A DNA stretch of 64,000 nt from Aquificota bacterium (GTDB lineage Bacteria > Aquificota > Aquificia > Aquificales > Aquificaceae): the NCBI GenBank assembly GCA_018771605.1, contig CP076324.1, positions 62,001-126,000 on the forward strand, written 5' to 3'. This document shows positions 18,444-64,000 of this stretch, in pieces. The position numbers and the translations under genes were made by a program. The notes beneath the pieces were generated by a model that was given only the letters and a program-made list of their open reading frames with translations, had not been told where the DNA came from and did not search any database. Position 1 is the first letter of the stretch. Every line of letters begins with the position of its first letter.

Positions 18444-19292
18444 TTACTCCACGTTTGCCACCTGTTGCTTTAGCCTGTCTATCTCCGTTTTTATTTCTAC
18501 TGCAAGAGAGGACAAGTCCGGAAGCTTATTGGAAAGGGTTGTTATTTCTCTATGCATCTCTTGGAATATAAACTCCAGCTTCCTTCCCACATCCTCGTTG
18601 GACTTCATAAGCTCCCTGCTTTTATTCAGGTGGGACTTAAGCCTGGTTATCTCTTCTTCCACATCCATCTTAGAAATTATCAAGGCTATTTCGTTCAAAA
18701 CAAGGGCATTGTTTTCAGAAAGTCCCAGTTCTTCGGCCTTTTCAAGCACTTTCTTCTTTGCCCTTTCATAAATCTCTTCTCTTTGCTTTAATATCTCCTG
18801 CAAAAGCCCTTCAATCCTTTTTAGCCTTTCCTCCATATCCAACCTTATATGCTCTCCTTCCTCCGCTTTTCTATTAAGAAGCTCTTTTAGAGCATCGGTA
18901 AGAGCGCAGGAGATAGCTTCTTCAAGGCTTGGGTCTATTTCTTCCTTTGGGGCCTCTGAAAACTTCGTTGCCAGTTGAAGCACCGTATCATCGCTCACGT
19001 TTAAGTTAAGCTTTTCCCTTATTATCTTAAAAAAGTTTATGTTGGTAAATAGGTTTTCAAGGTTCACCGGCTCAATTATATCCTTCCTCCTAACATCCAC
19101 ATGAACGCTTACAGTGCCACGCCTTAAAAACTCCCTTACCATCTTCCTTATAGAAAACTCAAGGGCCATAAGGTTATAGTTGGACTTTATAAATACTTCA
19201 AGAGCTTTGCCGTTTAGACTTTTAACAAAAACGCTTACGGCCCACCTATCGTTTTCATAAACCCCAGAACCAAAGCCCGTCATACTAAGCAT
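18444..19292 (-). CDS. YicC-like endoribonuclease family protein
   Basis: 282 residues, normal for YicC/YloC. It begins MLSMTGFGSG, the family's near-invariant N-terminus; further marks are VFVKSLNGKALEVFIK, IRKMVREFLRRGTVSVHVDV and the C-terminal MHREITTLSNKL with the conserved EINTLSNK-like motif and IKTEIDRLKQQVANVE. E. coli YicC is an endoribonuclease linked to small-RNA turnover. The start is 28 bp from the divergent helicase start; TATAAT lies 7 nt upstream of the ATG with no ribosome site, so it may be leaderless. Confidence 0.92.
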   Translation of the reverse strand: MLSMTGFGSGVYENDRWAVSVFVKSLNGKALEVFIKSNYNLMALEFSIRKMVREFLRRGTVSVHVDVRRKDIIEPVNLENLFTNINFFKIIREKLNLNVSDDTVLQLATKFSEAPKEEIDPSLEEAISCALTDALKELLNRKAEEGEHIRLDMEERLKRIEGLLQEILKQREEIYERAKKKVLEKAEELGLSENNALVLNEIALIISKMDVEEEITRLKSHLNKSRELMKSNEDVGRKLEFIFQEMHREITTLSNKLPDLSSLAVEIKTEIDRLKQQVANVE

Positions 19293-19320
19293 GTAAAAGA
19301 TTATAAGCTAAAATAATGGA
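19293..19320. promoter_or_regulatory. Short divergent promoter region yicC / helicase
   Basis: On the minus strand TATAAT (19305-19300) ends 7 nt before the yicC ATG; on the plus strand TAAAAT (19309-19314) ends 6 nt before the helicase GTG. Neither gene has a Shine-Dalgarno sequence, and no convincing -35 was found. Confidence 0.45.
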
Positions 19321-21219
19321 GTGCTTTTGTATGAGTTCCTTATTAACAGAGGTTTAGAACGTAGAAAGGCTCAGGAGGAGTTCTTTCAGATAGTGCTTGA
19401 AGCTTTTGATGTTGGTGGCACAAAGATAGTGCAAGCACCTACAGGCACAGGTAAAACCTACGCATACCTTATACCCATCATAGAAAAGGACCAAAAGGCT
19501 ATCATATCCACAGGCACAAAAATGCTACAAGAACAGCTAAGAAAGGATTTAGAAACTTTGAAAAGCTATGCAAAATACCTTTTAAACAAGGATGTTAACT
19601 ATCTTATACTAAAGGGTAAATCCAATTATCTTTGTCTTGATAGGTATTACTCCAGTCAAAAAGTGGACTTGGAGAGTTATATAAGCTCAGAATGGGATGG
19701 GGATTATGAATTTGTAAGCATTCCTGCGGAAGTCTGGCTGGAAATATGCGTGGATGATGATTATTGTGATAGCCATTATAGAAGTATGTGTAAGTACAGA
19801 AAGGAATGCTATTACTGGGGAAGGATAAAGGAGATGGAAAAACAAGCTCAGATATTGGTGGTAAATCATGCTCTTTTGAGCCTAAAGGAGTTTGAAAACA
19901 CTAAGGAAAGGGTTTTGGTAATAGATGAGGCCCATGAACTGGACAAGTATATAACAAGCAGTTTAACGGCGAGCCTGTCTTTATATACTTTAAGGGTGGA
20001 GGTTTTGGGTAGGATAAGGAACTTTTTGCCAGAGGCCAACGTAGATGTGGAAAGCTTTTTTATAGAAAACTTTGAAAAGCTGTTTAAAGAAAAGGAAGAA
20101 GAGCTACCCTTAGAGAGTCTAAGACCCTACCAAGAGGCCTTTGAAAGGGAAATTCTTTTTCCAATAGAAGCTTTGTACGAAAGAGTAAAGGAAAAGGTGC
20201 TTGAGGATTTGGAAGACTTTTTGGAAGGCAGGCTGTTCGTAAGCCTAAGGTTTAAGGATTATCTTTTAAAACTTGGAATTATAAGTTGGGAAAGGTATTT
20301 GGCTTTGAACTCTAACTACGAAGAGCCTTCAGAAGAGGAGGAATCTTTGATAAAAAGGATAAAATATTATGAGCTTTTATCCAAAAGTATAACAAAGTTA
20401 AGAAATTTTAACCTTGTAATGAAGGAGGATAGCGCCAACTTTGGCTATCTTGTGGGAAGAAAATGGAGTAAGAAGCTAAAAACTTTTAACTATTGGATCG
20501 GTATTTTCCCAGTTTTCCCAAAGGATTACGTAGATTTTAGTGATTACAAGGCCGTTATTATCACGTCCGCCACCGTAGACCCAGAAGACCTAAGGCTTAC
20601 TTTGGGTATTGAAGGAGATTATTATGAGCTTTCTCATCCTTTTCCATACCATAAGGTAAATTTCCTTGTTTATGACGTGGACCCAAGGGAAAGGGAGTGG
20701 GCTATGTATTTAAAGGATGCCTACAAATACCTTAGGAGCCTATACGATAAGGTTCTTGTCCTTTTGACCAATAAAGAACAAAAGGCCATTTTTGAAAGGG
20801 AAGAGGGCCTTGCCTTCCAGGGAGAGGAAGGCCTATCTAAGCTTGTGCAGGACCTAAGGGAGGGTAAAATAAAAGCCTTGGCAGGCTTTGATTCCCTTTG
20901 GCTTGGTGTGGATGTGCCAGGGAAAAAGGGCCTTCTTATGGCCAAACTTCCCTTTGAAAGCCCAGAAGAACCCATAACCTTCCATAGGATTAGGTTCTTG
21001 AAGGAAAAAGGAATAAACCCCTTTGAGTACCAAAAAAGAAAGGCCCTTATAAAGTTTAGGCAAGGCATAGGAAGGCTTATGAGGACAAAGGATGATGGTG
21101 GAACCATAATATTGTGCGACAAAAGAGTTTATAAGTTTAGGGAGTTTTTGCATGTACTGGATAAGCTTGGCATAAAGGTTACCAAGGTTCCAAAGCTATC
21201 TCTTAAACTATTATCATGA
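19321..21219 (+). CDS. DinG/XPD-type superfamily 2 DNA helicase with iron-sulfur cluster
   Basis: 632 residues, GTG start. Walker A APTGTGKT (about residues 41-48), motif Ia STGTKMLQEQL, four cysteines in a YCDSHYRSMCKYRKECYYW-like stretch (about 145-165, with C107 region nearby) typical of the [4Fe-4S] domain, the VVNHALL motif that follows it, DEAH box VIDEAHEL, and the C-terminal motif VI FRQGIGRLMRTKDDGG. It unwinds 5'-3', probably in repair or R-loop/D-loop removal. The stop overlaps bioD by 4 bp, although the functions are unrelated. DinG versus other XPD relatives cannot be settled. Confidence 0.85.
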   Translation: MLLYEFLINRGLERRKAQEEFFQIVLEAFDVGGTKIVQAPTGTGKTYAYLIPIIEKDQKAIISTGTKMLQEQLRKDLETLKSYAKYLLNKDVNYLILKGKSNYLCLDRYYSSQKVDLESYISSEWDGDYEFVSIPAEVWLEICVDDDYCDSHYRSMCKYRKECYYWGRIKEMEKQAQILVVNHALLSLKEFENTKERVLVIDEAHELDKYITSSLTASLSLYTLRVEVLGRIRNFLPEANVDVESFFIENFEKLFKEKEEELPLESLRPYQEAFEREILFPIEALYERVKEKVLEDLEDFLEGRLFVSLRFKDYLLKLGIISWERYLALNSNYEEPSEEEESLIKRIKYYELLSKSITKLRNFNLVMKEDSANFGYLVGRKWSKKLKTFNYWIGIFPVFPKDYVDFSDYKAVIITSATVDPEDLRLTLGIEGDYYELSHPFPYHKVNFLVYDVDPREREWAMYLKDAYKYLRSLYDKVLVLLTNKEQKAIFEREEGLAFQGEEGLSKLVQDLREGKIKALAGFDSLWLGVDVPGKKGLLMAKLPFESPEEPITFHRIRFLKEKGINPFEYQKRKALIKFRQGIGRLMRTKDDGGTIILCDKRVYKFREFLHVLDKLGIKVTKVPKLSLKLLS

Positions 21220-42095: not shown

Positions 42096-42513
42096 AATAA
42101 AAGAATATAAGACCTTCTAGCGTATCTTTTATGAGCTTTTTTATAAAACTGCCAAGTATGCCCTCATTGCCTGCCTTCTTTTTCAAACATTCAACGGCTT
42201 CCTCCAACCCTATAGAGTAAAGTGCTTTTGCTATAACCATAAGCTTATAAATATCCCTATCCTCAAAAAGCATGGCGTATAACTTTTCTGTAGCCCTCTT
42301 TACTTTCTTTTTTCCTATCAGCTAAATTACAAACATCCTTTTTGGAGTTATTGGATTGTCAAGGCCAAGCAAAAGCTTATCCTCGTAGCTTAAGCTTTGA
42401 ACATATCCTAAGTCCTTCCCATAGTAGGGGCACATTCTGTTCTTTTCCAAAACCTCTTTCCAACAGAAGGAACAAAACCACTTTACAAGTTCATAATATA
42501 GTGTTCTGGGCAT
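42052..42513 (-). pseudogene. Zinc-ribbon/HEAT-like helical protein gene interrupted by an in-frame TAG
   Basis: Frame from ATG 42513 reads MPRTLYYELVKWFCSFCWKE to MFVI, then TAG at 42324-42322, then continues in the same frame with LIGKKKVKRATEKLYAMLFEDRDIYKLM and a helical repeat-like part to a stop at 42052. The two halves join without gap or shift, so one nonsense change (CAG to TAG would do) split a gene of about 150 codons. The ribbon CSFC...CPYYG has a tyrosine where the fourth cysteine is expected, a second sign of decay. The end runs 44 bp into nadA. Family not certain. Confidence 0.7.
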
Positions 42514-42531
42514 TTTGCCTATAATATTCCT
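42514..42531. promoter_or_regulatory. 18-bp divergent promoter with overlapping -10 elements
   Basis: Between the start codons of the broken gene (minus) and DUF190 (plus). TATAAT (42520-42525) ends 6 nt before the GTG on the plus strand; TATTAT (42526-42521) ends 7 nt before the ATG on the minus strand. The two -10 elements lie on top of each other. No ribosome sites. Confidence 0.55.
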
Positions 42532-42846
42532 GTGGCTTATCTTTTAGCACGTGTATACCTCAGAGAAGATGATAAGCTGGAGGGAAAGCTTGCCTACAGG
42601 AGGGTCTTGGAGCTATTAAAGGAGTGGGGCGTAGAGGGCGCTACCGTACTTAAGTCCGTTATGGGTTATGGAACCACAAAGAGCTTTCATTATGAGGGGT
42701 TGGAGGTTTTGTCTTATGGTTTGCCTGTAGTGGTTGAGTTTATAGATGAGGAACCAAAGGTGATGACGGCTGTGGAGAGGCTTATTTCAAAGTTTGGGAA
42801 CCTTTTTATCACCCTTGAGGAGGTGCGGCTTTGTCCCTATTCTTAG
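42532..42846 (+). CDS. DUF190 family protein (first copy)
   Basis: 104 residues with a GTG start. DUF190 pattern: ARVYLREDDKLEGKLAYRRVLELLKEWGVEGATVLKSVMGYG in parts, then VVVEFIDEEPKV and FITLEEVRL. The fold resembles PII-like signalling proteins; family members sit beside crcB fluoride channels in many genomes, so a fluoride-related or regulatory role is likely. It overlaps crcB by 16 bp. A second, different copy follows crcB. Confidence 0.85.
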   Translation: MAYLLARVYLREDDKLEGKLAYRRVLELLKEWGVEGATVLKSVMGYGTTKSFHYEGLEVLSYGLPVVVEFIDEEPKVMTAVERLISKFGNLFITLEEVRLCPYS

Positions 42847-43208: not shown

Positions 43209-43529
43209 ATGAAGTGTGAAGAGGCGGTGCTTGTAAGGGTCTTTTTTGGAGAGGATGACAAGTATGGGGGCAAGCCACTATATAGGTATATGGTGGAGTT
43301 CTGCAGAGAAAGAGGTGTGGCAGGTGCCACTGTCTTTAGAGGTATCCTTGGCTATGGCAAGTCTTCCGTTATACACAAGGCTGGCCTGCTGGCTCTGTCT
43401 TCCGACCTTCCCATGGTGGTAGAGATAGTGGACTGTGAGGAAAAGATACAAGAGATACTTCCAGAGCTTTCAAAGATGGTAAAGGATGGCATAATAACCC
43501 TTGAAAAGGTAAAAGTGGTCAAGGCTTAA
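43209..43529 (+). CDS. DUF190 family protein (second copy)
   Basis: 106 residues, same pattern as the first copy: VRVFFGEDDKYGGKPLYRYMVEFCRERGVAGATVFRGILGYG in parts, VVEIVDCEEKI and GIITLEKVKV. It is clearly diverged from the first copy, so this is not a recent duplication. It begins 3 bp after crcB and overlaps the surE end on the other strand by 11 bp. Confidence 0.85.
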   Translation: MKCEEAVLVRVFFGEDDKYGGKPLYRYMVEFCRERGVAGATVFRGILGYGKSSVIHKAGLLALSSDLPMVVEIVDCEEKIQEILPELSKMVKDGIITLEKVKVVKA

Positions 43530-44271
43530 AGACCTCTTTTAAGCTCTCAAGATATTTGTAGTTTGTGAGGTCAAGCTGGAGTGGAGTAATTGACACATAA
43601 CCATGGTATACAGCCCAGTAGTCTGTGCCCTCCTCAAGGTGCCATCCAAACTCTTCAGCTGTTATCCAATATAGTGGTCTTCCAGAGGGGTCCAAAAGCT
43701 TTAGAACCTTTTCCTTGTAAGCCCTTCTTCCTTGGCGTGTCACCATAAAGCCCTTTATCTCTTCCTTTGGAAGGTTTGGAATGTTTACATTGAGATAAAC
43801 ATCCTCTGGCATGCCTTTTTCAAGCACCTTGACAACCACCTCTTTTGCAATCTTTGCCACCTCAGAAAAGTTTATATCCTCCCTTCCAAAGGCGGAAAAG
43901 GCAATGGAAGGAATGCCCAATATCCTACCCTCCATAGCTCCAGATACGGTGCCAGAGTAAGTAATGTCCTCTCCAAGGTTTGGCCCTTCGTTTATGCCAG
44001 AACAAACAAGATCTGGCCTTTTACCATCAAGGAAAAGGTAATATCCAAAATGCACGCAGTCCGCAGGCGTTCCACCTATAACAGTCCAAAAGTCCTCATC
44101 CACCCTTCTTATCCTAAGAGGTTGTGTAAAGGTTAAGGAGTGGCCCACACCGCTAAGGTTTCTGTCTGGAGCCACCGTTATAACCCTTCCAAGCTTTTTT
44201 AGCTCTTCCCTTAAGGCCCTTATACCTTCGGAAAAATAGCCATCATCGTTGGTAAGCAAAAAGGTAGGCAT
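43519..44271 (-). CDS. surE: 5'/3'-nucleotidase SurE
   Basis: Metal-dependent phosphatase on nucleoside monophosphates, linked to stationary-phase survival. 250 residues. Starts MPTFLLTNDDGYFSEG with the Asp-Asp metal pair; then VAPDRNLSGVGHSLTF, GTPADCVHFG and SGINEGPNLGEDITYSGTV in parts. The start lies 19 bp from the divergent dnaC start, with TAAAAT 7 nt upstream and no ribosome site. Confidence 0.95.
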   Translation of the reverse strand: MPTFLLTNDDGYFSEGIRALREELKKLGRVITVAPDRNLSGVGHSLTFTQPLRIRRVDEDFWTVIGGTPADCVHFGYYLFLDGKRPDLVCSGINEGPNLGEDITYSGTVSGAMEGRILGIPSIAFSAFGREDINFSEVAKIAKEVVVKVLEKGMPEDVYLNVNIPNLPKEEIKGFMVTRQGRRAYKEKVLKLLDPSGRPLYWITAEEFGWHLEEGTDYWAVYHGYVSITPLQLDLTNYKYLESLKEVFKP

Positions 44272-44290
44272 AGCCTATATTTTAATCCTT
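44272..44290. promoter_or_regulatory. 19-bp divergent promoter surE / dnaC
   Basis: CCTATATTTTAATCC core. Minus strand: TAAAAT (44284-44279) ends 7 nt before the surE ATG. Plus strand: TATATT (44276-44281) ends 9 nt before the dnaC ATG. Overlapping -10-like elements, no ribosome site on either side. Confidence 0.5.
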
Positions 44291-44941
44291 ATGGAGTGTC
44301 CCAAATGTAAAGGCACAGGCTTTATAGATAAGGGAGGTGTGGTAGAGCTTTGTTCTTGCAGGTATGAGGGTGTAAACCTTCAAAAGTATTTGAACATCCC
44401 ACCAAGGTTTATAAACGCAGAGTTTGAAAACTACATGCCCATATCTCCTTCCCAAAAGACAGCCCTTGAGATATGCCTTCATTATGCGCACAGCTTTGAC
44501 CCAAAGGAAGGAAAAGGACTAACCCTTGTGGGACCACCTTCCATGGGAAAAACCCACCTTGCGGTAGCTACCCTAAAAAACATCTATAGGTTAAAAAGGG
44601 TCAGGGGCTTTTTCTTTGACACAAAGGACCTCTTTTATAGGCTTCAAAGCTACGCAGGGTCGGACAAAATGAACAAGCTTATGAACTTTTTGATAAACGT
44701 GCCTCTTTTGGTCCTTGATGACCTTGGCAGTGAAAGGCTCTCCGACTGGAGGGTGGAGGTACTCTCTTACATAATCAGCACAAGGTATAACTACCTTAAA
44801 AGCACCATAATAACCACCAACTACCCCTTGTTAAAAAGGGAAGAGGAAGGCCAATCCCTTGAAGAGAGGCTTTCACCGGCAATAGTTAGCAAGATATACC
44901 AGATGAACGACCTAATAAACATAAGCTCTCTGGCTAAATAA
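44291..44941 (+). CDS. dnaC: DnaC-type helicase-loader ATPase
   Basis: AAA+ ATPase that helps load the replicative helicase. Start at 44291 (MECPKCKGTGFI); the longer frame runs through surE's start. 216 residues: a zinc-finger-like CPKCKGTGFIDKGG...CSC at the N-terminus, Walker A GPPSMGKTHLA (about 80-90), Walker B LLVLDDLGSERLS, sensor IITTNY. Structures of the Aquifex aeolicus protein exist under this name. IstB-like transposition ATPases look similar, but there is no IstA neighbour. Confidence 0.88.
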   Translation: MECPKCKGTGFIDKGGVVELCSCRYEGVNLQKYLNIPPRFINAEFENYMPISPSQKTALEICLHYAHSFDPKEGKGLTLVGPPSMGKTHLAVATLKNIYRLKRVRGFFFDTKDLFYRLQSYAGSDKMNKLMNFLINVPLLVLDDLGSERLSDWRVEVLSYIISTRYNYLKSTIITTNYPLLKREEEGQSLEERLSPAIVSKIYQMNDLINISSLAK

Positions 44942-56559: not shown

Positions 56560-56585
56560 GTTTATCTAATAAAATAATCTTTTGC

Positions 56586-59726: not shown

Positions 59727-60287
59727 TTATAAAGTTTTCCTTCCTATTAGCTTAAGAAACTCCTCCCTTGTCCTGAGGTCGCTGAGGAAAAGACCCCTTA
59801 GGGCAGATGTAACTGTTAGATGCCCAGGAGACATAACTCCCCTCATAGACATACAAAGATGTTCCATCTCCAAGACTACAGCCACACCTTTTGGTTTTAA
59901 CTGTTCCATGAGGAAATCTGCAATCTGGTTTGTAAGCCTCTCTTGCACCTGAGGTCTTAGGGCAAAGGCCCGCACAGTCCTTACAAGCTTGGAAAGACCG
60001 CATACTATACCATCGGGTATGTAGGCGATATGCGCTTTACCGAAGAAGGGCAAAAGGTGGTGTTCGCACAGAGAATATATATTCACATCTTTTACAAGCA
60101 CCATTTCGTTATAAGACCCAAACTCCTCAAAGAGCTTAAAGTCAAAATCCCTTTGCCTTTCAAACTCTTCCCACATACGTGCTACTCTATCGGGAGTCTC
60201 CAAAAGGCCTTCTCTGTTTGGGTCTTCTCCTATACCTTCCAAAAAAAGCCTTATGGCCTGTTTTATTTTTTCCTTGTCTATTGGCAT
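59727..60287 (-). CDS. folE: GTP cyclohydrolase I
   Basis: Zinc enzyme that starts tetrahydrofolate synthesis from GTP. 186 residues. Zinc cysteines and histidine in [20 protein letters not shown] (C, H) and [10 protein letters not shown] (C); GLSKLVR and [14 protein letters not shown] are family motifs. folP, a later step, is in the window at 62291. The ATG has TATAAT 6 nt upstream and no ribosome site. Its start is 15 bp from the divergent psiE start. Confidence 0.96.
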
Positions 60288-60302
60288 GGTAATATTATAC
60301 CT
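60288..60302. promoter_or_regulatory. 15-bp divergent promoter folE / psiE
   Basis: GGTAATATTATACCT between two start codons. Minus strand TATAAT (60299-60294) ends 6 nt before the folE ATG. Plus strand TAATAT/TATTAT (60290-60298) ends 4-7 nt before the psiE ATG. The core is nearly self-complementary. No clear -35 in either direction. Confidence 0.5.
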
Positions 60303-60731
60303 ATGGAAGACTTAGAAAAAAGACAACGAATACTGCTTTTTAGCATAAAAGGCGTAGCTTGGTTGTTTGATGTTTTTGTAGTTCTAACCTTGGCCACCGT
60401 TGGCATCTTTTTAATGGTATGGATAGTGTATGAATTTTATTTAGTCATAACTGGTGAACTACCTCTTGAAAGGGGAGGCTTAAGCATACTGGGTTCTGTG
60501 CTAATACTCTACGCCATATCAGAACTTCTTTCAGAGGAGATAAAACATATAAAAGGTGGCACGGTTAGCATAAAGGCCTTTGTAGGCGTGGCACTGGCAG
60601 CGGTAATAAGAAAGGTTCTAATAATCTCTTTATCTCCAGAAAAGGTTATGGAACTTATAACTTTATCGGTAGTGTTATTCGCCTTAGGTTTGGTATATTG
60701 GATAATACACAAAGTAGAAAGCTCTTCATGA
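60303..60731 (+). CDS. PsiE-family membrane protein
   Basis: 142 residues from ATG 60303 ([17 protein letters not shown]); an open frame runs further upstream through folE but is a shadow. Four membrane spans. The family feature is the amphipathic stretch [33 protein letters not shown] in parts between spans 2 and 3. E. coli PsiE is induced by phosphate starvation; function unknown. Start is only 15 bp from folE. Confidence 0.82.
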
Positions 60732-61547: not shown

Positions 61548-62304
61548 TTTCTATCCTCAACTCCTTAATAAGTAATGTTCTCAACATTTCTGGGTCAAGA
61601 TTTCTTTGTAGTTTACCATCAACGGCAAGGGAGATCTCTCCAGTTTCTTCCGAAACTACTACGCAAAGGGCATCAGTCTCCTCAGATATGCCAAGTGCAG
61701 CCCTATGCCTTGTGCCGTACTTTTTGGGAAGCTTGGAAGATTTAGAAAGGGGTAAAATGCAGGAAGCGTAGACAACTCTATCCCCTCTTATTACCACAGC
61801 ACCGTCATGTAATGGAGATAGTGGGTTGAAAATAGTAATCAATAGTTCAACGGAAACAAGACTGTCTATTAGAACGCAACCTTCCACAATACCATCCACA
61901 CTTTGCGATCTTTCTATAACTATAAGCCCTCCTATCTGTCTTTCGGAGAGAAAAGAAGAAGCCCTAACAACCCTATCCACTACCCTTTCTCCCACAGGCT
62001 TTATAACAGGAACTCCCGTTTTTTGTCCAAGCCTGCTTAAGGCTTTTCTTATTTCAGGTTGGAATATAACCACAAGGGAGAAAAGTCCCACAGTCCATAG
62101 CTTTTCAAAGACCCAAGAAAGGGTACTAAGACCCAAAAGCTCCGCAACAAGCCAAAAAATGGCCAAAAGACTTAGGCCTTTGAATATTTGAAAACCTCTC
62201 GTTATACGTAAAAAGTACAAGATGCCATAAAAAAACAAAGAAACAGACAGTATATCTAAAAGGTCCTTCCAAGATATAACCTTTAAAAAGTCAAAATTCA
62301 CCAT
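61540..62304 (-). CDS. cdaA: Diadenylate cyclase CdaA
   Basis: Makes the second messenger c-di-AMP from two ATP. 254 residues: three N-terminal membrane spans (about 15-85) and the DAC domain with the catalytic DGA (NPLSPLHDGAVVIRGDR) and RHR (GTRHRAALGISEETDAL) motifs, both intact. Operon order folP-cdaA-cdaR-like; the 14-bp overlap with folP indicates co-translation. No glmM in the window. Confidence 0.95.
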   Translation of the reverse strand: MVNFDFLKVISWKDLLDILSVSLFFYGILYFLRITRGFQIFKGLSLLAIFWLVAELLGLSTLSWVFEKLWTVGLFSLVVIFQPEIRKALSRLGQKTGVPVIKPVGERVVDRVVRASSFLSERQIGGLIVIERSQSVDGIVEGCVLIDSLVSVELLITIFNPLSPLHDGAVVIRGDRVVYASCILPLSKSSKLPKKYGTRHRAALGISEETDALCVVVSEETGEISLAVDGKLQRNLDPEMLRTLLIKELRIENA

Positions 62305-63481
62305 AGGTCCTCACCGTATCAAGCAAAGCCAAAAACTCACGAGTTTCTTTAACGTCATGAACCCTTACTATATGAGCGCCTTTTATCACAGCCAGAGCCA
62401 ATGCTCCAAGGCTTCCGTATAGCCTCTCTTTTGGCTCTGTCTTCTTTTTTAATAGCCCTTCTATAACAAGGCCTATAAAGGACTTTCTTGAAACTCCTAC
62501 AAGCAAAGGAAGGCCAAAAAGTCGTAGCTCATCAAACCTCTTTAATATCTCCACATTATGTTCCGGGAGCTTCCCAAAGCCTATGCCTGGGTCAAGGATG
62601 GCTTGACTTTTATAGCCCGATTCTTCAAGGGCCTTTAACCTCTCTTCAAACCAAAGGATGATTTCTTCCATCACATCTTCATAGACTATGGGCATCTCCT
62701 TCCATGTTTCTGGCTTACCCTTAATGTGTGTTATTACATAAGGGCAGTTGTATTTGGCTACTACGCTGTACATGTTAGGGTCAAAGGTTCCACCGCTTAT
62801 ATCATTTATCATATCCGCACCTTCTTGAAGGCAGGCATCTGCCACTCCAGCCTTATAAGTATCTATGGATATCCAGACCTTTGGAAGCTCCTTTCTTATC
62901 TCCTTTAAAACGGGTAAAACCCTTTCCAGCTCCTCTTGGGCTGATATCCTCTGTGAGCCTGGCCTTGTAGACTCCCCTCCTATATCTATTATATCAGCTC
63001 CTTCTTCTGCCATCTGCACAGCCCTTTTTACCGCCTCAGAAGGCTTCAAATACAGCCCTCCATCGGAAAAAGAATCTGGAGTTATATTAAGCACGCCCAT
63101 TATGGCCGTTTTTATGCCCAGTGGTAATATTTTTTGGTTATACTGTATCTTAAAGGACCTTTTCCGGTAGTTTTGAAGCTTTTGAAGTATTTCAAGGGCA
63201 AGGGCCTTATCTTCCTTTACAAGAAGGGAACAAAAATCCCTTATCTTTGCCTCAGAACCACAAAGAACAAAGCCACCTTCTCCATAAAAAGCGTGAAGGC
63301 AAGCCTGTTTTGCCAAAGGGAAAAGTATTTCTGGCTTTACATTCTTTAGATATATAACATGAAAAATACCCTCAAAAGCCCTATCGTAGGCTTCTCTAAA
63401 GAATATTCCTACTTTTTCCTTAAGAAATCTGTAAAAGGCATCCCTGCTTTCAAAATGCTTGACCATCATATAGAATAGCAT
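62291..63481 (-). CDS. folP: Dihydropteroate synthase with N-terminal extension
   Basis: Joins p-aminobenzoate to the pterin diphosphate in folate synthesis. The catalytic TIM barrel is about residues 127-396: MGVLNITPDSFSDGG, DIIDIGGESTRPGS, NDISGG and the final RVHDV. About 120 residues precede it, against a few in E. coli, with a cysteine-containing alpha/beta look (QACLHAFYGEGGFVLCGS). Start at 63481 or the ATGs at 63469/63466; no ribosome site helps choose. Only 13 bp separate it from the divergent sdhB-like gene. Confidence 0.92.
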   Translation of the reverse strand: MLFYMMVKHFESRDAFYRFLKEKVGIFFREAYDRAFEGIFHVIYLKNVKPEILFPLAKQACLHAFYGEGGFVLCGSEAKIRDFCSLLVKEDKALALEILQKLQNYRKRSFKIQYNQKILPLGIKTAIMGVLNITPDSFSDGGLYLKPSEAVKRAVQMAEEGADIIDIGGESTRPGSQRISAQEELERVLPVLKEIRKELPKVWISIDTYKAGVADACLQEGADMINDISGGTFDPNMYSVVAKYNCPYVITHIKGKPETWKEMPIVYEDVMEEIILWFEERLKALEESGYKSQAILDPGIGFGKLPEHNVEILKRFDELRLFGLPLLVGVSRKSFIGLVIEGLLKKKTEPKERLYGSLGALALAVIKGAHIVRVHDVKETREFLALLDTVRTYGEF

Positions 63482-63494
63482 ACATTATTTACTC
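63482..63494. promoter_or_regulatory. 13-bp divergent start region folP / sdhB-like
   Basis: On the plus strand TTGACC (63459-63464), a 16-bp spacer and TACATT (63481-63486) could start a transcript around 63493-63495, at the ATG. On the minus strand TAAATAAT lies just before the folP ATG at 63481. No ribosome sites. Confidence 0.4.
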
Positions 63495-64000
63495 ATGGTT
63501 CTAAGGTTGAAAATTAGAAGGCAGGAAGAGAAGGGAAAGCCATACTATCAGAGCTTTCAAGTTCCTTATGAAGAGGGCATGACCCTTCTTATGGTCCTAC
63601 AAAGGATAAAGGAAGAGATAGACCCAACCTTAAGCTTTAGACATTTTTGCAGAGCTGGTATATGTGGAACTTGTGCAGTTATGGTAAATGGCTTTCCAAA
63701 GCTTGCTTGCAAAGAGCAAGTATTGCCCTATGTGCTTTTCGGTGAAGAGATTACCATAGAACCCCTTAAGAACTTTGAGGTTATAAGGGACCTCGTGGTG
63801 GATAACGAAAAGGTCATTAGAAAGATGAAAGATATGCACCTTTGGATAAAGGAAAAGTCCAAGGACCCACGCATACCACCAGAAGTGAGCAAAAGGATAG
63901 AAAACTCTGCAGACTGTATTTTATGCCTTTCCTGTCAGGCCTACTGCCCACAGGTTTTGGAAGAAAATTATGCTGGACCTCTCTTCTTTGCCAAGCTTTA
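63495..64000 (+). CDS. Succinate dehydrogenase / fumarate reductase iron-sulfur subunit (partial, 3' end off the window)
   Basis: 168 residues visible. [2Fe-2S] ligands C52, C57, C60 and C72 in FCRAGICGTC and KLAC; the next cluster motif is C141-X2-C144-X2-C147-X3-C151 (CILCLSCQAYCP), as in SdhB/FrdB. The protein passes electrons between the flavoprotein and the membrane part. In Aquificaceae this family serves fumarate reduction in the reductive TCA cycle as well as succinate oxidation; which one cannot be told here. Not detected as a complete frame because it runs off the edge. Confidence 0.92.
   Translation, partial: MVLRLKIRRQEEKGKPYYQSFQVPYEEGMTLLMVLQRIKEEIDPTLSFRHFCRAGICGTCAVMVNGFPKLACKEQVLPYVLFGEEITIEPLKNFEVIRDLVVDNEKVIRKMKDMHLWIKEKSKDPRIPPEVSKRIENSADCILCLSCQAYCPQVLEENYAGPLFFAKL

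Follow-up and report, generated by a model that had tools for sequence, protein, structure and literature searches.

How can two genes be expressed in opposite directions when their start codons lie only 18 bp apart? This question is raised by a DUF190 (COG1993) gene in the window analysed here, a 64,000-nucleotide stretch (positions 62001-126000) of the 1,722,082-bp single-contig genome of an Aquificota bacterium (G000). The gene (42532..42846, + strand; PF02641, E 1.3e-22) begins with GTG at 42532, lacks a Shine-Dalgarno (SD) sequence and is predicted to have a leaderless start. Head to head with it lies a broken reading frame (42096..42513, - strand, ATG at 42513) that has an in-frame stop after 63 codons; the 63-residue part has no Pfam match. 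The 18-bp core between the two starts, TTTGCCTATAATATTCCT (42514..42531), contains a TATAAT box on the + strand (42520-42525, spacer 6) and a TATTAT box on the - strand (42521-42526, spacer 7), which overlap one base out of register. The promoter box of the broken gene is intact. A shared promoter would go on transcribing this dead partner because the DUF190 gene needs its promoter.

Divergent gene pairs in the window

A first-pass annotation of the window had listed six short divergent gaps, and all six are present at the same coordinates. It had also proposed that the -10-like boxes of the two strands overlap or adjoin. We found overlapping boxes in four pairs (one of them after its start was moved) and adjacent boxes in a fifth; in the sixth they are weak. 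The surE gene (43519..44271, - strand, ATG at 44271; PF01975, E 1.6e-63) and a dnaC/IstB-like ATPase gene (44291..44941, + strand, ATG at 44291; PF01695, E 3.2e-15) are separated by the 19-bp core AGCCTATATTTTAATCCTT (44272..44290). Its boxes, TATTTT on the + strand (44278-44283) and TAAAAT on the - strand (44279-44284), both have a spacer of 7 and again overlap one base out of register. Between folE, encoding GTP cyclohydrolase I (59727..60287, - strand, ATG at 60287; PF01227, E 1.6e-68), and psiE (60303..60731, + strand, ATG at 60303; PF06146, E 3.6e-21), there are only 15 bp, GGTAATATTATACCT (60288..60302), in which TATAAT on the - strand (60294-60299, spacer 6) overlaps TAATAT on the + strand (60290-60295, spacer 7).

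The fourth overlapping pair consists of folP, encoding dihydropteroate synthase (62291..63469, - strand; PF00809, E 1.1e-88), and an sdhB/frdB-like gene for an iron-sulfur subunit (63495..64000, + strand, ATG at 63495; PF13085, E 5.8e-36), which exceeds the window end. The 13-bp gap first reported for this pair came from a misassigned start. The folP ATG at 63481 is absent in a relative of the same genus, G006, which has GAT where the window has CAT, so the conserved start is the ATG at 63469 and the gap is 25 bp (63470..63494). In this gap, TATGCT on the - strand (63477-63482, spacer 7) and TACATT on the + strand (63481-63486, spacer 8) share 2 bp. In the 28-bp core (19293..19320) between yicC (- strand, ATG at 19292) and a helicase gene (+ strand, GTG at 19321), the boxes TATAAT (- strand, 19300-19305, spacer 7) and TAAAAT (+ strand, 19309-19314, spacer 6) stand side by side, 3 bp apart and without overlap. 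The 26-bp gap between a small membrane gene and an ABC exporter gene (56560..56585) has the weakest boxes of the six, and they are ambiguous; neither strand has a clean TANNNT at 6-9 nt from the start codon.

A short spacing class of divergent pairs

To avoid testing the pattern on the sites that had prompted the idea, we took an independent sample of G000, comprising 40 stretches of 20 kb (800 kb), all outside the window. Gene starts were called by a custom script from coding potential and start-codon type, and nothing else, so that the boxes had no influence on the called starts. The identical procedure was applied to 400 kb from each of five relatives (G006, G022, G018, G023 and G036); G022 and G018 represent two other genera within the family, and G036 belongs to another family of the same order. 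A count of short divergent pairs beyond the window had been suggested by the first-pass annotation. In the G000 sample, 13 of 95 divergent gaps measure 15-22 bp, and the sole smaller gap is 0. Gaps of 15-22 bp also occur in G006 (7/48), G022 (5/43) and G018 (9/54), while none was found in the 400 kb of G023 (0/27) or of G036 (0/36). A 100-kb annotated stretch of Escherichia coli has zero divergent gaps at 15-22 bp, and a 50-kb plasmid stretch of Deinococcus deserti, a small and unrepresentative sample, has no short pairs.

The four positive genomes (G000, G006, G022 and G018) were pooled, giving 240 divergent pairs. Thirty-four of these fall at 15-22 bp, none at 1-12 bp and one at 13 bp. The next three 8-bp bins hold a mean of 16.3 pairs, so the short class is about twofold enriched (Poisson P ~1e-4). 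The peak is broad, with gaps of 17 and 20 bp tied in frequency. Measured between called start codons, which are presumed to mark the transcript starts, the distances are mostly 16-23 bp, with modes at 18 and 21. A strict 18-bp quantum is excluded by the tie and by the varying register offsets of the boxes. In the G000 sample outside the window, nine divergent pairs with gaps of 39-46 bp looked like a second cluster. By eye, these pairs are a mix of two separate leaderless promoters, or of one leaderless and one SD-led gene. The pooled data and the relatives show no peak at this spacing, and it was rejected as a second class.

It might be supposed that the real start codons are located deeper within the genes, which would make the true gaps larger. 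The folP start is such a case, and for one pair of G000 (L011) the ortholog starts 17 nt further in. As a general explanation, miscalled starts are improbable. The same gene finder gives zero short-gap pairs in G036 and G023. Of 70 start comparisons between short-gap genes and their orthologs, 40 match exactly, a result no worse than in the other gene classes. Moreover, the alignments of surE, folE and psiE begin at residue 1 in relatives. Another explanation is that two independent, ordinary leaderless promoters have simply been packed together by genome compaction, and that any overlap is a by-product with no functional sharing or coupling. The gap distribution above 25 bp is a smooth continuation, as such packing would predict, but the twofold excess at 15-22 bp over the following bins speaks against it.

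Promoter boxes and Shine-Dalgarno sites

In the pooled set, 23 of the 34 pairs at 15-22 bp carry TANNNT at 6-9 nt from the start codon on both strands, against 2.2 expected and a maximum of 7 in 2000 letter shuffles of the same gaps. A clean TANNNT is missing on one or both strands in the other 11. The gap sequences are also more self-complementary than shuffled ones (0.42 versus 0.32, sd 0.02). The two hexamers physically overlap in 21 of the 23 two-box pairs, so that sharing follows from the geometry, contrary to the by-product explanation; the adjacent yet separate boxes of yicC and the helicase gene fit that explanation. Register offsets range from -2 to +7 and are most often +1 or +4 bases. 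Counted by gene, TANNNT at 6-9 nt precedes 26 of 30 starts of G000 genes (window included) whose gaps are 10-24 bp, and 65 of 82 short-gap starts over the four genomes. Before divergent starts at gaps below 60 bp in G000, the motif peaks at 7-8 nt (0.30 and 0.25 of genes, against ~0.05-0.1 at most other spacers). The peak before divergent starts is likewise at 7-8 nt in G006 and G022, at 6-8 nt in G018 and at 6-7 nt in G023, and there is none in G036.

SD 4-mers precede only 3 of 82 short-gap genes; a control region taken farther upstream gives 14/82, and co-directional genes give 555/1001. SD sites at short-gap starts are thus rarer than background, in agreement with the lack of them originally noted. 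The reported contrast with genes preceded by AGGAGG sites is also broadly right; in G000, SD 4-mers are found at 11% of divergent genes at gaps below 60 bp versus 54% of closely spaced co-directional genes. In G036, SD motifs precede 68% of divergent genes. The 3' end of the G000 16S rRNA, CACCTCCTTT, carries a normal anti-SD sequence, so an altered ribosome cannot account for the missing SD sites.

No -35 peak was found for short-gap genes (6%), while long-gap leaderless promoters have a weak signal at spacer 17 (14%). A dependence of the short-gap promoters on a -35 element was therefore dropped. TG at -15/-14 occurs in 15% of short-gap genes, about threefold over the 4.4% background. Bacteria do have divergent promoters within partner genes, and the weak -35 signal of the long-gap leaderless genes in this family might be read in the same sense: the promoters would lie inside the neighbouring genes, the short gaps would be only 5' untranslated regions and the AT-rich boxes would be coincidental. 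We consider this very unlikely, even more so than miscalled starts. Leadered mRNAs would be expected to carry SD sites, which are here below background; the boxes are fixed at 6-9 nt and occur on both strands at ten times the shuffled expectation; and the class is missing from G036, which uses SD sites.

G036 lacks both the TANNNT peak and the short pairs, indicating that the short-gap class tracks the leaderless signal. G023 is the exception. It has a leaderless signal at a shorter spacer, yet it has no divergent gaps of 1-29 bp, and 0/27 has P ~0.016 under the pooled rate. Thus, leaderlessness alone is not sufficient for compact pairs. A stronger -35 element as the cause of this difference was discarded, as no clear difference was found.

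Conservation of the cores and their partner genes

Conservation of the cores in other Aquificaceae had been suggested as a check. It holds for surE/dnaC and folP/sdhB and fails for the spacing of folE/psiE and, in G006, for the pairing of yicC with the helicase gene. The head-to-head gap of surE and the dnaC-like gene is 19, 17, 17 and 17 bp within the genus (G000 and three congeners) and 24 bp in each of three species of another genus. The spacing of folP and the sdhB-like gene is identical in five genomes from two genera, of which four (G000 among them) belong to this genus and the fifth to a different one. For most relatives, the spacings of these two pairs were computed from hit coordinates. 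Two pairs outside the window keep both gap and core in G006, from 22 to 22 bp and from 21 to 23 bp.

Other pairs are less stable. A TATAAT-like box lies 7-8 nt before the folE ATG throughout the genus, without an SD site, and the folE start is SD-led in the other family of the order. In four congeners, folE and psiE are ~48-50 bp apart and have two separate boxes; the fused 15-bp core is found only in G000 among the genomes compared. In G006, yicC and the helicase gene are far apart and do not form a pair, the upstream context of the small membrane gene and the ABC exporter gene differs, and a fabG-like gene keeps its box next to a different neighbour. In relatives, the genes of most short-gap pairs of G000 are paired differently or stand without a divergent neighbour. 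The comparisons of the fabG-like gene, folE/psiE and yicC/helicase indicate that pairs form and dissolve, while single leaderless boxes persist.

The 13 pairs outside the window consist mostly of recognisable housekeeping genes, as named from their Pfam matches. They include relA/spoT with mreB, ffh with an isocitrate/isopropylmalate dehydrogenase gene, tyrS with an aldehyde dehydrogenase gene, prfA with a GNAT gene, a fabG-like gene with a cytidylyltransferase-like gene, ksgA with yaaA, the RNase R gene with a small gene, and a cytochrome c assembly gene with acpS, among others. There is no obvious regulator/target pair among the 13. A functional linkage of the partners was considered and set aside, since none is apparent from the Pfam readings of the outside and window pairs.

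The unrelated functions of the partners, the exchange of most partners between relatives and the separate folE and psiE boxes of the congeners all agree with independent promoters brought together by compaction, and the pairs that keep their spacing do not. We regard such packing as a serious contender that comes close to an even chance. It mainly denies functional meaning to the overlap, not the anatomy, and much of the bidirectional-promoter reading set out below could hold alongside it.

A candidate minimal bidirectional promoter

Judging from the sequence patterns, we think it quite probable that the cores are minimal bidirectional promoters, in which one pseudo-symmetric -10 element gives rise to two leaderless mRNAs. 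The element (TANNNT on both strands with overlapping hexamers) would be bound in either orientation by the housekeeping sigma factor, presumably of the sigma-70 type, and would be active both ways. Each transcript would start on the initial nucleotide of its gene's start codon or within 1-3 nt of it, and neither leaderless mRNA would need an SD site. The first-pass annotation suggested that symmetric -10 elements are fused here with leaderless translation of both genes. The box statistics, the phylogenetic control and the conservation of spacing favour this reading, in which leaderlessness itself is inferred. A leaderless gene would have its promoter within ~15 nt of the start codon, so a deletion or rearrangement could join two such genes until their -10 boxes overlap. 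The floor of ~15 bp may reflect the loss of one box at any closer spacing.

A broader proposal is that in most Aquificaceae about one seventh of the divergent pairs, largely of housekeeping genes, hold their entire two-way signal (promoter core and translation start, with no -35 element, leader or SD site) in one symmetric element of 15-22 bp, where the orientation of the polymerase would be a mutually exclusive choice that couples both genes. This proposal is tentative, and we judge it possible and rather doubtful.

Relation to known systems

In the bidirectional symmetric -10 promoters described by Warman, Grainger and colleagues, divergent start sites lie 7-25 bp apart with a mode of 18 (PMC12825309, PMC10268837), and spacings of 10 and 23 bp are also common (PMC12825309). 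The 18-bp spacing is explained by reciprocal -11A/-7T pairing and by -18T opposite +1A (PMC10268837). These promoters do not show competition between directions at basal levels, and one direction is repressed if the other is strongly activated (PMC12825309). In the Salmonella chromosome, they are commonest between divergent genes (PMC12825309, PMC10268837). Like them, the cores described here have one pseudo-symmetric -10 for both strands. If both genes are leaderless, a 17-bp gap places the start sites 18 bp apart, the published mode for symmetric -10 promoters, and by this geometry the A of one AUG would be paired with -18T of the other promoter. Unlike in the published class, the element here lies directly between the start codons, and its register offset takes several values; PMC12825309 and PMC10268837 make no mention of leaderless mRNAs.

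Zheng et al. (2011) predicted leaderless genes from TA-like signals for 20.7-32.4% of the genes in two Aquificae genomes, with Aquifex aeolicus as a worked example (PMC3160421). Their signal, TAtaaT immediately before the start codon, matches the one found here, but paired genes with a shared box were not treated, and the words 'divergent' and 'bidirectional' are absent from the main text. In Mycobacterium tuberculosis, both mRNAs of the divergent pair prpD/Rv1129c were mapped as leaderless, and closely juxtaposed divergent promoters were called common (Cortes et al. 2013; PMC3898074). Unlike the pairs described here, prpD/Rv1129c is a regulator/target pair, and the passages of that article consulted here describe neither a shared -10 core nor a genome-wide spacing class. 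The dRNA-seq study of Aquifex aeolicus by Lechner et al. (2014; PMC4227106) reported very high reads where the 5' regions of opposed genes overlap, which its authors leave unexplained. It resembles the present case in the order Aquificales and in the head-to-head arrangement of the genes, but the word 'leaderless' is absent from its text. The cores described here offer a possible reading of these published head-to-head transcripts.

The ingredients, leaderless genes in Aquificae and symmetric -10 promoters, are therefore known; their combination in a minimal layout used across the genome appears to be undescribed. In a search mainly of open-access papers, we found none that joins the two into a spacing class. 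The layout would be close to the smallest possible for two genes transcribed away from each other, and would account for the floor of divergent spacing in these compact thermophile genomes. Two questions could be tested in this one system, namely how polymerase selects one of the two directions at a symmetric -10 element, and whether unrelated housekeeping genes become coupled by this selection. The layout may also yield a practical rule by which annotated gene starts of Aquificaceae can be corrected.

Inserts in folE of relatives

The folE gene of G018 (L070:352-1938) has an in-frame insert of ~340 residues near residue 147, with a LAGLIDADG domain (PF14528). A similar insert is suggested by the hit coordinates for folE of G038. 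The interruption of folE resembles an intein within GTP cyclohydrolase I. The folE genes of G015 and G024 (L061 and L062), which belong to one genus, have one TGA in the matched stretch, and this may be only the terminal stop.
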